Of a stretch of 64,000 nt of DNA, positions 15,976 through 39,618 are shown one piece after another. A program made the position numbers and the translations under genes. Position 1 is the first letter of the stretch; every line of letters starts with the position of its first letter. Below the pieces are notes generated by a model. The model ran no database searches and was not told where the DNA came from. It saw nothing but the letters and a program-made list of their open reading frames with translations. The DNA comes from Halobacterium sp. KA-4 (GTDB taxonomy: Archaea; Halobacteriota; Halobacteria; Halobacteriales; Halobacteriaceae): positions 124,001 through 188,000 of the forward strand of contig NZ_JAJJZG010000002.1 in NCBI RefSeq assembly GCF_021028995.1, written 5' to 3'.

Positions 15976-16932
15976 ATGACTACGCTCGGCACGGCGTCCG
16001 CGGACCCCGGGGAGTTCGACACCGGTCGGCTCACCGTGGGCGAGATGCGGGACGGCACCGCAGTCGGCCTCCCGGTCGCGGTCGTGAACGGCGAACGCGA
16101 CGGCAAAACCCTCTACCTGCAGGCAGCCAGCGACGGCGACGAACTGAACGGCGTCGGCGTGCTCCGCCGCGTCGTCCCCCAACTCGACCCCGCGGAGCTC
16201 GCGGGCGAAGTGCGCGTCGTCGGCATCACGAACTTCCACGCGTTCCAGGTCGCCGAACACCGCAACCCCATCGACGACACGAAACTCAACCGTGCGTACC
16301 CCGGCAGCGCGAACGGCTCCTCCTCCGAGCGCATCGCACACGCCACGTTCTCCGCCGCCGAGGACGCCGACCTCATCCTCGACCTCCACCAGGGCTCGAC
16401 CTCCCGCATGATTAACGAGGTGCGCGTGCGCTGCGGCCGCCACCACCGCCTCCACAGCGACTGCCTCGAACTCGCGAAGGCGTTCGGCTGCGGGCACGTC
16501 CTCGACCAGAAAGGCCCCGAAGGCCAACTCGCACGTGCCGGCCCCTCCGAAGGCATCCCCACCGTCGACCCCGAACTCGGCGGCGCGGTCGGCTTCGACG
16601 AGGAATCGATCCAGTACGGCGTCGACGGCGTCTTCAACGTCCTCCGCTACTACGGCCTCCTCGACGGCGACGTCGAGACCGAACGCCAGACCCGCGCGAA
16701 GGACTTCGACCGCTACGGCTCCCCCGTCGGCGGCATCGTCGAGTACAAACAGGACCTCGGCGACGACGTCCGCGCCGGCGACACCCTCTTCGAAGTCACC
16801 GACGTCTTCGGCACGCTCAAAGCCACCGTCACCGCCGACAACCACGGTATCTTCTGGCGAAGCCGTCGCCTCCCACAGGTCGCCACCGGCGAGTACGTCT
16901 GTTCGGTCGGAACGGACGTGGATTCTTTCTAA
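15976..16932 (+). CDS. Succinylglutamate desuccinylase/aspartoacylase-type (M14-like) deacylase
   Basis: A 318-residue zinc-carboxypeptidase-fold protein. Family members remove acyl groups from amino acids or related small molecules. Seen: a region corresponding to the first zinc motif reads ASDGDELNG, where a His-Gly-Asp-Glu would be usual; the second ligand region is LILDLHQGST; GIVEYKQDLGDDVRAGDTLFEV near residue 252 is a small biotinyl-like beta domain at the C-terminus typical of the family. The His-to-Asp change means catalysis or the metal ligand may differ. A dispersed repeat begins 4 nt after the stop. Confidence 0.82.
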   Translation: MTTLGTASADPGEFDTGRLTVGEMRDGTAVGLPVAVVNGERDGKTLYLQAASDGDELNGVGVLRRVVPQLDPAELAGEVRVVGITNFHAFQVAEHRNPIDDTKLNRAYPGSANGSSSERIAHATFSAAEDADLILDLHQGSTSRMINEVRVRCGRHHRLHSDCLELAKAFGCGHVLDQKGPEGQLARAGPSEGIPTVDPELGGAVGFDEESIQYGVDGVFNVLRYYGLLDGDVETERQTRAKDFDRYGSPVGGIVEYKQDLGDDVRAGDTLFEVTDVFGTLKATVTADNHGIFWRSRRLPQVATGEYVCSVGTDVDSF

Positions 16933-16936
16933 CCCA

Positions 16937-17090
16937 CTTTTTCCAGCGCTCGGCGCGCTACGCGCGCCGTCGCTTGCAAAAACTTGGGAAAAAGCACTCC
17001 TCACCCCCTCCGGGGGTTCGTCGGCCTCCGCTCCCTCGCTATGCTCGGTCGCGGAGTGAATCGCGCAGCGGAGCCGCGCGAATGCTCGTT
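16937..17090 (+). repeat. Dispersed 3' repeat element, copy B
   Basis: The element begins with CTTTTTCC 4 nt after the stop of the M14-like gene. The order is: T-rich start, GCGCTCGGCGCG palindrome-like core, CGCTTGCAAAAACTTGGG, AAAAAGCACTCCTCACCCCC, a C5/G5 hairpin, TCGTCGGCCTCCGCTCCCTC, and a tail ending GCGCGAATGCTC. CTTTTTCC and GGGAAAAAG are inverted with respect to each other and could form a long stem. The middle section is almost identical to copy C at 37813, and most of it to copy D at 24807. Confidence 0.75.
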
Positions 17091-36555: not shown

Positions 36556-37806
36556 ATGAGCGAGCAGGAGGGCGCACCGTCCGAGGACCGCCGAAAGTAC
36601 GAGTTCCAGAAGGTCATCGAGGACCTGAAGGACTACACCGGGAGCGGCACCCAGCTGGTGACCATCTACATCCCCCCGGACAAGCAGATTTCGGACGTCG
36701 TCGCCCACGTCACGCAGGAACACTCCGAAGCCTCCAACATCAAGTCCAAGCAGACCCGGACGAACGTCCAGGACGCACTCAAGTCCATCAAGGACCGCCT
36801 CCGGTACTACGACACGTTCCCGCCGGAGAACGGCCTCGTCGTCTTCTCCGGTGCCGTCGACACCGGCGGCGGCCGCACGGACATGGTGACGGAAGTGCTC
36901 GAATCGCCGCCCCAGCCCATCGAGTCGTTCCGCTACCACTGCGACGACGCGTTCCTCACCGAGCCCCTCGAGGAGATGCTCGGTGACAAGGGCCTCTACG
37001 GGCTCATCGTCCTCGACCGCCGCGAAGCCAACGTCGGCTGGCTGAAGGGCAAACGCATCGAGGCTGTCAAGTCAGCGAGCAGCCTCGTCCCCGGCAAACA
37101 GCGCAAGGGGGGGCAGTCCGCACAGCGGTTCGCCCGCCTCCGCCTGGAAGCCATCGACAACTTCTACCAGGAGGTCGCCGGGATGGCCGACGACCTCTTC
37201 GTCCCGAAGCGCCACGAGATCGACGGCATCCTCGTCGGCGGCCCCTCCCCGACGAAGGACGAGTTCCTCGACGGCGACTACCTCCACCACGAACTCCAGG
37301 ACTCGGTGCTCGGGAAGTTCGACGTCTCCTACACGGACGAATCCGGCCTGAAGGAACTGGTCGACCGCGCCCAGGACACGCTCGCGGAAGCCGACCTGAT
37401 GGACGACAAGTCCGACATGGAGACGTTCTTCAAGGAGCTCAACGGCGGCGACCTCGCCACCTACGGCTTCGAGCCCACGCGCAAGAACCTCGTCATGGGC
37501 TCCGTCGAGACCCTGCTTATCTCCGAGGACCTCCGCAAGGACATCGTCACCTACGAATGTCCCAACGGCCACGAGGAACGCGAACTCCTCGGCCAGCGCG
37601 CCGACACCCCCGAACACACGTGCACGGAGTGCGGCGACGACGCCGAAGTCGTCGAACGCGACGACGCCATCGACCACCTCATGGAAATCGCGGACAACCG
37701 CGGCACGGACACCCACTTCATCTCCACCGACTTCGAGAAGGGCGAACAGCTGCTCACCGCCTTCGGTGGGATTGCCGGGCTGCTACGGTACGGCACGGGC
37801 GTCTAG
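36556..37806 (+). CDS. prf1: Peptide chain release factor aRF1
   Basis: The archaeal release factor that recognises all three stop codons. The 416-residue protein has the N-terminal stop-codon domain with NIKSKQTR (residues about 61-68), the catalytic GGQ in KGGQSAQRFARLR (near residue 181) and a C-terminal domain with a zinc-binding Cys-rich part (CPNGHEERELL ... CTECGDDAE). A TATA-like GTTACTTA lies about 29 nt upstream. A dispersed repeat starts 6 nt after the TAG stop. Confidence 0.96.
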   Translation: MSEQEGAPSEDRRKYEFQKVIEDLKDYTGSGTQLVTIYIPPDKQISDVVAHVTQEHSEASNIKSKQTRTNVQDALKSIKDRLRYYDTFPPENGLVVFSGAVDTGGGRTDMVTEVLESPPQPIESFRYHCDDAFLTEPLEEMLGDKGLYGLIVLDRREANVGWLKGKRIEAVKSASSLVPGKQRKGGQSAQRFARLRLEAIDNFYQEVAGMADDLFVPKRHEIDGILVGGPSPTKDEFLDGDYLHHELQDSVLGKFDVSYTDESGLKELVDRAQDTLAEADLMDDKSDMETFFKELNGGDLATYGFEPTRKNLVMGSVETLLISEDLRKDIVTYECPNGHEERELLGQRADTPEHTCTECGDDAEVVERDDAIDHLMEIADNRGTDTHFISTDFEKGEQLLTAFGGIAGLLRYGTGV

Positions 37807-37812
37807 AACCCA

Positions 37813-37914
37813 CTTTTTCCTGCGCTCGGTCGCTGACGCTCCCTCGCTTGCAAAAACTTGGGAAAAAAGCACTCCTCACCCCCTTCGGGGGTTCGTCGGC
37901 CTCGCGGATGCTTG
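37813..37914 (+). repeat. Dispersed 3' repeat element, copy C
   Basis: Starts 6 nt after the aRF1 stop with CTTTTTCCTGCGCTCGG and continues CTCGCTTGCAAAAACTTGGG, AAAAAAGCACTCCTCACC, CCCTTCGGGGG (hairpin) and TCGTCGGCCTCGCGGATGC. Nearly identical over the middle to copy B at 16937. Beyond it (37915-38006) is ordinary intergenic DNA with the promoter of the next gene. Confidence 0.75.
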
Positions 37915-38006
37915 TCTTTGTTGGTGTAGGTGTTCGTCGACAGTCGCCTTTTCGCCGGCAGGGACAGGTACTTGTTACTCGGTCACATGGACCAAGATGC
38001 ATCGCC

Positions 38007-38276
38007 ATGAAACCGTGCCAAAACTGTCAGACGGTCATCGACGAGTACGTCTTGGACAAACAACTCGAACCCCTGCGCGACCTGACAGTCGACGACTTCA
38101 ACGTCTGCGCGGACTGTGCAACCGTCGTCGACGACGCGTGCGTGGAGTGTGGCGGCGCGGTGTACGTTCCCCGAAGCGACTCGGACGTCCCCGACTTCTG
38201 TCCGGCCTGCCGCTCGGACTTCATCGAGCAGACGGGCCACGACCCCGGCTGGCACCGCGACCCGATTTCGACCTGA
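38007..38276 (+). CDS. Small multi-zinc-ribbon protein, 89 aa
   Basis: An 89-residue protein with four Cys pairs: CQNC (4-7), CADC (34-37), CVEC (45-48) and CPAC (65-68), so it can bind two zinc ions. The remaining sequence is acidic, with an ending TGHDPGWHRDPIST. It has no enzymatic motif. A run of five T follows about 30 nt after the stop. Function unknown; possible nucleic-acid or protein binding. Confidence 0.75.
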   Translation: MKPCQNCQTVIDEYVLDKQLEPLRDLTVDDFNVCADCATVVDDACVECGGAVYVPRSDSDVPDFCPACRSDFIEQTGHDPGWHRDPIST

Positions 38277-38347
38277 AGCGCGGACCAGTCGCTGCTATCG
38301 CTTTTTGGCTACTTTTGCTCGGCAGACGTGAGTCAAGAAAAGCCGCT

Positions 38348-38398
38348 CTACGCCAGCGGCGTCCGCTCTACCACTTGGCTGTCGTACGTCGGGTACTG
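38348..38398 (-). pseudogene. Duplicated 3' end of the radical SAM gene
   Basis: On the minus strand this segment encodes DQYPTYDSQVVERTPLA followed by a stop, almost the same as the C-terminus EQYPTYDGQVVERTPLA of the complete gene ending at 38535. About 41 of 47 bases match between the two copies (roughly 38351-38397 and 38538-38584). No start or upstream domain is present. It is separated from the intact gene by the repeat at 38411. Confidence 0.75.
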
Positions 38399-38410
38399 GT
38401 CAGACCCACC

Positions 38411-38531
38411 GTTTTCCCGCTCGGGTGTCCTCGCTCCGCTGCGGGCACCTCTCGCGGCAAAACCCTGGACGAAAAACACCTCGTCCTCGCTGCGCTCGGA
38501 CGAGCGAATCGCGCCTCCGGCGCGAATGCTC
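38411..38531 (+). repeat. Dispersed repeat element, copy F (diverged)
   Basis: Shares a T-rich start (GTTTTCCCGCTCGG) and distal blocks with copy B: CTCGCTGCGCTCGG, GAATCGCGC and GCGCGAATGCTC. The central CTTGCAAAAACTT block is replaced by a diverged CGGCAAAACCCTGGACG. Unlike the other copies it does not directly follow a stop codon in its own direction; it lies between the intact and the duplicated 3' ends of the radical SAM gene. Confidence 0.5.
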
Positions 38532-38534
38532 CAC

Positions 38535-39530
38535 TCAGGCGAGCGGCGTCCGCTCGACAACCTGCCCGTCGTACGTCGGGTACTGCTCGACGATTTCGCC
38601 GCTGTCGATATCGCCCTCCTCGACCATCTCTTCGAGAATCCACCACGCCACCTCGACGTGGTTGGACTTCACCGTGTAGAACTCCTCGGGGACGCCGAGT
38701 TCGCGGATGCGCTGGGGGCTGACGGTCGTCTTCCCGTAGACGAGCGTGCCGTCCTCGGTGACGTCGTCGAACTCCCGGCGGACGTTCCGCGCCATGCGCT
38801 TCAGGCGCGAGCGGTGCTGGGCGGCGTCCTTGAAGACGCTCGTGCAGAAGTACACCTTCTCGTGGTCGGCCATCTCTTCGAGGATGGCGTCCTTCGAGCC
38901 GTCGACGGCGCTCATGTGGTCCTCTTGGAGTTCGTAGCCGGCGTCCTGCATACGCTCGTAGTTGCCGTCGCTCATCTCGAACTCGTTGACGTTGCAGAAG
39001 TCGGCGGCTCCCTCGTCGAGGAAGTCGAGGAACTCCTGCTCGGCGCGGATGCCGGGAATCTCGAACGCCGGGGTCAGACCCTCCTCGCGCGCAATGTACA
39101 GAATCTCCTCCCACTCGGTGCCGTGGAGGTCGCCCCACTGCTCGTACGGCGGGTGGAAGCGAATCTCGTCGAGGCCAGCCTCCGAGAGGCGGCGCATGTT
39201 CTCGCGGCCGCCCGTGATGCCCGTGTAGAGGTGTGTGTGGTGGTCCTCGCCGAATTCGTCTTTCAGCAGGCGGAGGTACCGGCACGTGCGGTCGAGCACT
39301 TCCTGGGGCTCGCCGCCCGTAATCGAGGTGCCGAGCGCGTCCATCAGCTTCGCTTCCTTGACGATGTCCTCGTCGTCCTCGACGGGACGCTCGTTAGCGT
39401 ACACCTGCTGGACGTTCTTCCGGTTCTCGCCCAGCGGGCAGTAGAAGCAGTCACGCTGGTCGCAGTACCCGTAGACGAAGAGCACCATCTTGCCGCCCTT
39501 CGCGCACTGCTCGCAGCCCTTCGAAATCAT
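38535..39530 (-). CDS. Radical SAM protein of unknown substrate
   Basis: A 331-residue radical SAM enzyme. The N-terminus has a Cys pair CEQC (6-9), then VLFVYGYCDQRDCFYCPLGE with a CX4CX2C arrangement (Cys residues near 22, 27 and 30) instead of the common CX3CX2C. GTSITGGEPQEVLDRT near residue 67 is the GGE motif. TGITGGRENMRRLSEAGLDEI follows (in parts: TGITGGRENMRRLSEAGLD). The family is conserved in haloarchaea; substrate unknown. ATG at 39530. Its C-terminus is found again at 38348. Confidence 0.88.
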   Translation of the reverse strand: MISKGCEQCAKGGKMVLFVYGYCDQRDCFYCPLGENRKNVQQVYANERPVEDDEDIVKEAKLMDALGTSITGGEPQEVLDRTCRYLRLLKDEFGEDHHTHLYTGITGGRENMRRLSEAGLDEIRFHPPYEQWGDLHGTEWEEILYIAREEGLTPAFEIPGIRAEQEFLDFLDEGAADFCNVNEFEMSDGNYERMQDAGYELQEDHMSAVDGSKDAILEEMADHEKVYFCTSVFKDAAQHRSRLKRMARNVRREFDDVTEDGTLVYGKTTVSPQRIRELGVPEEFYTVKSNHVEVAWWILEEMVEEGDIDSGEIVEQYPTYDGQVVERTPLA

Positions 39531-39618
39531 TCGTTGGAACACCTCTACTCCCCGAGGGCTGAAAAACTGTGCGAATCCAACTGGACGTACGTCCGACTCG
39601 GTGTGCGCTCCCGAAAGC

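Follow-up and report, generated by a model that had tools for sequence, protein, structure and literature searches.

Two ends of one gene around a terminator-like element: a recurrent gene-end cassette in Halobacteria

How a gene comes to possess two 3' ends, with a short non-coding element lodged between them, is the question raised by a radical SAM gene in a 64,000-nucleotide stretch of Halobacterium sp. KA-4 DNA (the window, meaning the whole stretch analysed; its genome is G000 below). A sequence-only reading of the locus had proposed that an allele was replaced by a related incoming one that left the old 3' tail behind, or alternatively that an element had inserted with a long, old duplication, and had added that dispersed elements may act as recombination points. 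The features concerned, in window coordinates, are the following.

38535..39542, minus strand: radical SAM gene, resident allele (open reading frame list; Pfam PF04055, E 2.3e-8)
38535-38537, minus strand: TGA stop of the radical SAM gene
38539..38588, minus strand: inner gene tail, inside the resident radical SAM gene (direct repeat, 86%)
38402..38534, minus strand: dispersed terminator-like element, in sense orientation relative to the gene, comprising a spacer hairpin (38480-38534) and a T run with hairpin (38404-38479) (sequence, RNA fold, genome copies, comparison of filled and empty sites)
38348..38401, minus strand: outer gene tail, which has a TAG stop of its own and is the native end of element-less relatives (direct repeat; empty sites in G009, G012 and G002)
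38008..38277, plus strand: convergent neighbour, a DUF7571 zinc-ribbon-like protein (Pfam PF24455, E 8.6e-53; also present beside the empty sites)

The second copy of the radical SAM 3' end across a dispersed element is real. The direct repeats at 38352-38401 and 38539-38588 are 86% identical over 50 nt without a gap and lie 187 nt apart from start to start, and the two tails differ at 5 sites across 44 unambiguously duplicated nt, close to the 'about 6 of 47' bases counted originally. Read on the minus strand, the resident gene ends in ..EQYPTYDGQVVERTPLA-TGA and the second copy in DQYPTYDSQVVERTPLA-TAG, the latter stop lying at 38348-38350; the last codons and stop of the resident end differ from those of the outer tail (CTCGCCTGA versus CTGGCGTAG). 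The window element, about 135 bp, has an RNA fold that beats 200 of 200 shuffles (z -2.85), and parts of the stretch are found again at two further sites in the same genome. A variant of the element (T run, CCCAAGTTTTTGC, hairpin, GGAAAAAGTGGG) is also seen in the window at 37806-37868 and 16930-16993, in both places with its right end beside a convergent stop codon and without a tail copy. An NCBIfam search with the gene at 38535..39542 gave no match at E 0.001, and a search of window positions 37780-38700 against Rfam 15 gave 0 matches at E up to 1.

Relatives of the window genome carry the locus in two states. The closest of them, G011, has both tails and the element with identical junctions, at 96% across 563 bases; G009, G012 and G002 have a single tail with a TAG stop next to the same DUF7571 neighbour, which is to say an empty site. 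Given these two states, chance is excluded as the source of the window's repeat, and the single-tailed genomes likewise dispose of an old feature fixed in all relatives, which the sequence-only reading had named as the finding that would speak against recent replacement. Because the empty-site relatives have the TAG stop and the same neighbour, the outer tail and its flank are native and the TGA resident end arrived with the element. In G008 and G004 a tail copy is present, but behind a different element, as is likewise the case in G031, a member of another family. All four tail copies of G000 and G011 stand only 1-3 differences from empty-site G009 over the 44 duplicated bases, so these bases could have been identical at insertion, and a second allele in the window would be marked solely by the last codons and the stop. 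The outer end matches the single-tailed Halobacterium relatives, but the 44 bases call for no separate lineage.

This locus exemplifies a gene-end cassette that recurs in Halobacteria, its order being gene tail, stop, spacer, hairpin element, second tail and native downstream DNA. Among 80 haloarchaeal radical SAM loci, 79 were scored (L092 was dropped, its frame not being found) by comparing the last 120 gene bases with the following 500, with 20 shuffles for each locus; a second tail scoring at least 17 was present at 17 of the 79, and the shuffle maximum never exceeded 16. In gene sense the insert consists of a T run, GGTSCAGATTTTT, a GC-rich hairpin, AAAAAGGT, a few bases and the tail, with the insert at L065 lacking the GGT, and three tails are present at three loci of this gene (L055, L087 and L060). 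A hot spot seems to lie at the radical SAM gene end: the direct-repeat scan of the same 80 loci picked out four places elsewhere, compared with these 17 of 79 loci.

Other genes carry the same arrangement. The left-foot pattern was found at 58 places in 38 of 242 Halobacteria-class genomes, and the reversed pattern at none; across 30 fetched loci, a tail copy scoring at least 15 accompanied 19 of 35 elements and 3 of 168 mismatched pairs. When all fetched loci except the viral ones were pooled, 59 elements fitted the two-sided pattern, 58 of them with enough flank. A copy of the preceding gene's end followed in 37 of these 58 (score at least 18) and the remaining 21 scored at most 10, so that the split between elements with and without a tail copy is clean. 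Since the pool includes loci chosen for the radical SAM gene, elements outside that gene were counted separately: 19 of 40 have a tail copy, as against 9 of 1554 mismatched pairs, orthologous genes included. The 21 of 58 elements without a copy mean that the copy is not obligatory, which is a point against the cassette model. Further, 12 of the 22 copy-less elements outside the radical SAM gene (one of them without full flank) end 2-7 nt from a convergent stop, compared with 0 of 19 that have a copy; this position is not predicted by the cassette model, and elements ending there may serve as two-way terminators. Among elements at other genes, a sense stop precedes the element by at most 220 nt in 17 of 19 cases with a tail copy and 19 of 22 without.

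An unbiased direct-repeat scan of 616 kb returned 39 repeats, and with the element right edge at 22 of them and 5 more inside the same arrays, chance or coding repeats were rejected as the source; 12 of the 39 had no element edge. The element was present at 3 of 11 direct repeats in 400 kb of G011 and at 0 of 8 in 400 kb of G032, the latter a further point against the cassette model. Another gene end, at L054:8-146, has three perfect 34-nt tails with the element between them, and one of its flank copies contains a run of N. Haloviruses were considered as carriers and set aside: 10 viral stretches match the left motif, at 30-46% GC and with the rest of the element missing, and were taken as chance. 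Among plasmids, a single weak match to part of the window stretch was found, in a Halomicrobium plasmid. The automatic gene-calling rate at other genes was left unused, the caller having found just 34 of the 80 radical SAM genes.

The element itself has a recognisable form. The pattern behind the 59 elements demands an A-T pair and a GA/GG loop, and the evidence for pairing therefore resides in the two further base pairs beside the required one, which form in 57 and 59 of the 59 elements, whereas shuffled foot partners pair in a mean of 44 and 30 and a maximum of 49 and 41. C-G, T-A and G-C pairs are all seen there, so that a short inverted repeat with covarying bases makes up the hairpin foot; a third foot pair showed no excess over shuffles in the same 59 elements. 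RNA folding of six examples gave z from -0.9 to -4.0, two of the six being unremarkable. The right edge is fixed, at GGT plus about 7 nt: the tail copy starts a median of 7 nt after the foot GGT (42 of 44 rows, two being omitted). The left edge varies, lying at the stop codon or within the spacer or hairpin, and the matched repeats range from 18 to 145 nt, unlike a MITE-like short fixed target duplication. Likewise absent is the lack of target duplication that characterises PATE/IS605-derived elements, a tail copy being found at 37 of 58. Inserts measure 60-230 bp and have no coding capacity. A T run close 3' of the stop in sense orientation, a feature of intrinsic terminators, is present in the 59 elements, as the search pattern demanded; from these T runs and hairpins, the element would be predicted to end transcripts in the cell.

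The stop codons provide a means of telling one allele from another. Of 44 distinct cases, the stop could be placed in 40 (4 were dropped with no stop found), and the outer stop was the same as the inner one in 26 of 40, different in 12 and missing from the outer tail in 2. L170 is counted within the 26 'same' cases through a stop placed in the wrong frame, its tails ending by eye in TGA and TAA, and the 40 are not all independent, the window and G011 being one event and some related-species rows likewise. Because a passage from TGA to TAG needs two changes, outer tails with a different stop are the ends of working alleles rather than decayed copies, and one element then stands between the ends of two alleles. 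That 26 of 40 cases share a stop is a point against transfer, and the perfect or same-stop cases fit duplication within a genome as well as they fit transfer. At L094, L100 and L168 the duplication is perfect and extends into the spacer or hairpin, a pattern suggestive of a second process in which the copy is made within a genome.

Another gene end, L140, separates cassette from flank. Three genomes, G011, G002 and G012, have this site filled; the remaining ten, with G000, the sister of G011, among them, have it empty. Between G011 and G002 the cassette is identical at 132 of 140 positions and the gene body at 371 of 400, but the downstream flanks are unrelated (0.48, with a shuffled mean of 0.48 and maximum of 0.52), so that one cassette stands before two unrelated flanks; the flank of G011 is that of empty G000 (136/149). 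G002 and G012 share both flank and cassette, each only about 0.70 alike, and 0.94 for the cassettes of G011 and G002 is consequently too close for common descent of non-coding DNA. In G011 the inner stop is TAA, as in G002, and the outer stop TAG, as in G000, and the two tails encode different in-frame C-termini. These relationships are read here as a probable recent passage of the cassette between the G011 and G002 lineages. Loss of an ancestral cassette in G000 is possible and would also give an empty site, but it leaves the 0.94 unexplained. Within one genome the L140 tails differ at 3 (G002) or 4 (G012) of 75 positions, and the same tail differs at 14 between the genomes, which suggests that conversion between tails may have occurred at this locus in G002 and G012.

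The explanation that best fits these observations, and towards which the balance tilts modestly, is that a non-coding, terminator-like element is passed from lineage to lineage when gene tails recombine homologously. Since the element has the same gene tail on either side, a cassette can enter a related genome despite non-homologous downstream DNA and can leave cleanly by tail-tail recombination. Three steps may be envisaged. In the first, the least firmly drawn, the initial extra tail would arise as strand synthesis running through the element quit the hairpin at its foot and resumed 17-100 nt upstream in the gene tail, the exit being suggested by the fixed edge and the loose return by the variable length. 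In the second, to which L140 and the stop exchanges lend support, homologous recombination in the tail would carry cassettes from one lineage to another, presumably as double crossovers (or copy-choice). In the third, arrays would grow and shrink through their tails, as the three-tail arrays and repeat-mediated deletion suggest. Haloarchaea mate by fusion and recombine between species, according to the available parts of two accounts (PMC5496957, PMC4500145). Against transfer, no donor of the window's own cassette was found.

A broader proposal, held only tentatively, is that these cassettes form a transposase-free class of Halobacteria element whose insertion copies the host's last codons and whose tails act as homology arms for interspecies spread, kept alike by conversion. 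If so, an element with a terminator and a stop would pass gene by gene despite non-matching intergenic DNA, and tail conversion would preserve the homology for the next transfer as well as the clean exit. This would be a short DNA spreading on the cell's homologous recombination, with no enzyme of its own and with homology arms that are built out of the host gene as the element inserts.

Perfect duplications, paired with clean empty sites, might instead be credited to a non-autonomous transposon that inserts at gene ends and whose target duplication is exceptionally long and varies in length (17-108 nt), the copies drifting later. L133 is filled in G011 alone, where the tail copy is 51/51 identical and sited exactly at the stop codon, and 12/12 other Halobacterium genomes are single-tailed; L034 offers a duplication of 33/33, and the fixed right edge of the element accords with such an origin. 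The sequence-only reading's second option, insertion with a long duplication, was also partly right. However, the different outer stops in 12 of 40 cases are often two substitutions away with the remaining tail near-identical, and drift of a non-coding copy should destroy stops, not exchange them. The two in-frame C-termini at L140 and a left edge that may fall at the stop codon, spacer or hairpin also tell against a transposon, which is an unlikely account. Slippage, by which tail and element would be duplicated in tandem and the outer element copy then eroded, would accommodate the three-tail arrays at L055, L087, L060, L054 and L173 and the outer copies that retain part of the element at L049, L062 and L094. 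Yet at L133 of G011 the ancestral state, represented by 12/12 relatives, had no element to duplicate, and in the window the outer tail has the native TAG and native flank and the inner tail does not. As a general origin slippage is already contradicted, and its overall standing is poor.

On the view first taken of this locus, incoming DNA replaced the allele in a one-off event and the old 3' end stayed in place. This view is consistent with the native outer tail and flank and with the difference between the tails in last codons and stop, but the recurrence of the layout and a junction always at the element edge oppose it, and most of the tail shows no separate lineage. A single old-allele replacement lacks support because drift after duplication suffices for the 44 bases, and a chance replacement lacks it because the layout recurs with different elements at the radical SAM gene in many genera and at other genes. 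Such an event is accordingly quite improbable as an explanation. The 'replaced allele' was nonetheless partly right, in a process that is recurrent and element-bound, and the suggestion that dispersed elements may act as recombination points was sound, since elements do sit at recombination junctions. When a tyrosine integrase uses a gene's 3' end as attachment site, direct copies of that end usually flank the insert, and in two genomes tRNA 3' ends, too, are duplicated. A remnant of this kind is nevertheless highly improbable, because tails of many unrelated genes occur with a single element family, which leaves no common attachment core, and because inserts of 60-230 bp have no coding capacity.

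Those tRNA tails belong with a different small element, present in two families. Two further 3'-tail copies lie downstream of tRNA-His at L143:3239-3640 (G011), and one lies downstream of tRNA-Ser at L158:8640-8864 (G032); between the tail copies are an inverted decayed tail and a shared piece, AGTCGCGC-CAG..GCGAGCACGTC.

The gene-tail cassettes bear on how haloarchaeal genomes are read. They would explain part of the change in gene ends and terminators between haloarchaeal species, and where two allele ends surround one element, points of interspecies recombination would be readable exactly. It would be wrong to label a second gene end found in intergenic DNA a pseudogene or an assembly fault. 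The radical SAM gene end, with its 17 of 79 loci, provides a ready test bed. No description of the tail-element-tail layout was found in the accessible portion of the open-licence literature on haloarchaeal repeats, target or gene-end duplications and terminators.

Several known systems nevertheless share parts of the arrangement. REP/BIME repeats and IS200/IS605-type ends are imperfect gene-end hairpins whose edge lies at a fixed distance from the foot. They have the gene-end hairpin and fixed edge in common with the cassette but, unlike it, no gene-tail copy, and no HUH enzyme is linked to the cassette here. Neisserial DNA uptake sequences, which act as paired terminators, are likewise gene-end inverted repeats that link termination with recombination. 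As far as the accounts available in part describe them (PMC3630211, PMC2397512), they are a short exact uptake signal with no gene-end copy, unlike the cassette. The terminators of Haloferax volcanii similarly comprise T runs and hairpins just after the stop in sense orientation, although the accessible part of that study (PMC7237163) describes neither a tail copy nor mobility. Also comparable are the transposase-free mobile repeats of Haloquadratum walsbyi, namely MITEs, PATEs and small mobile repeats (PMC3119063, in its accessible part), likewise short, non-coding, palindromic, dispersed, strain-specific and haloarchaeal. There, target duplication is reported to be lacking in PATEs and small mobile repeats and MITE ends to be transposon-related, whereas here the flanking repeats are 17-108 nt gene-end copies and no transposon end was recognised. 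Finally, the repeat-mediated deletion described in the same source for haloarchaea would, by clean loss between direct repeats, turn a filled site into an empty one; it explains loss only, whereas in the cassettes the repeats arise together with the element.
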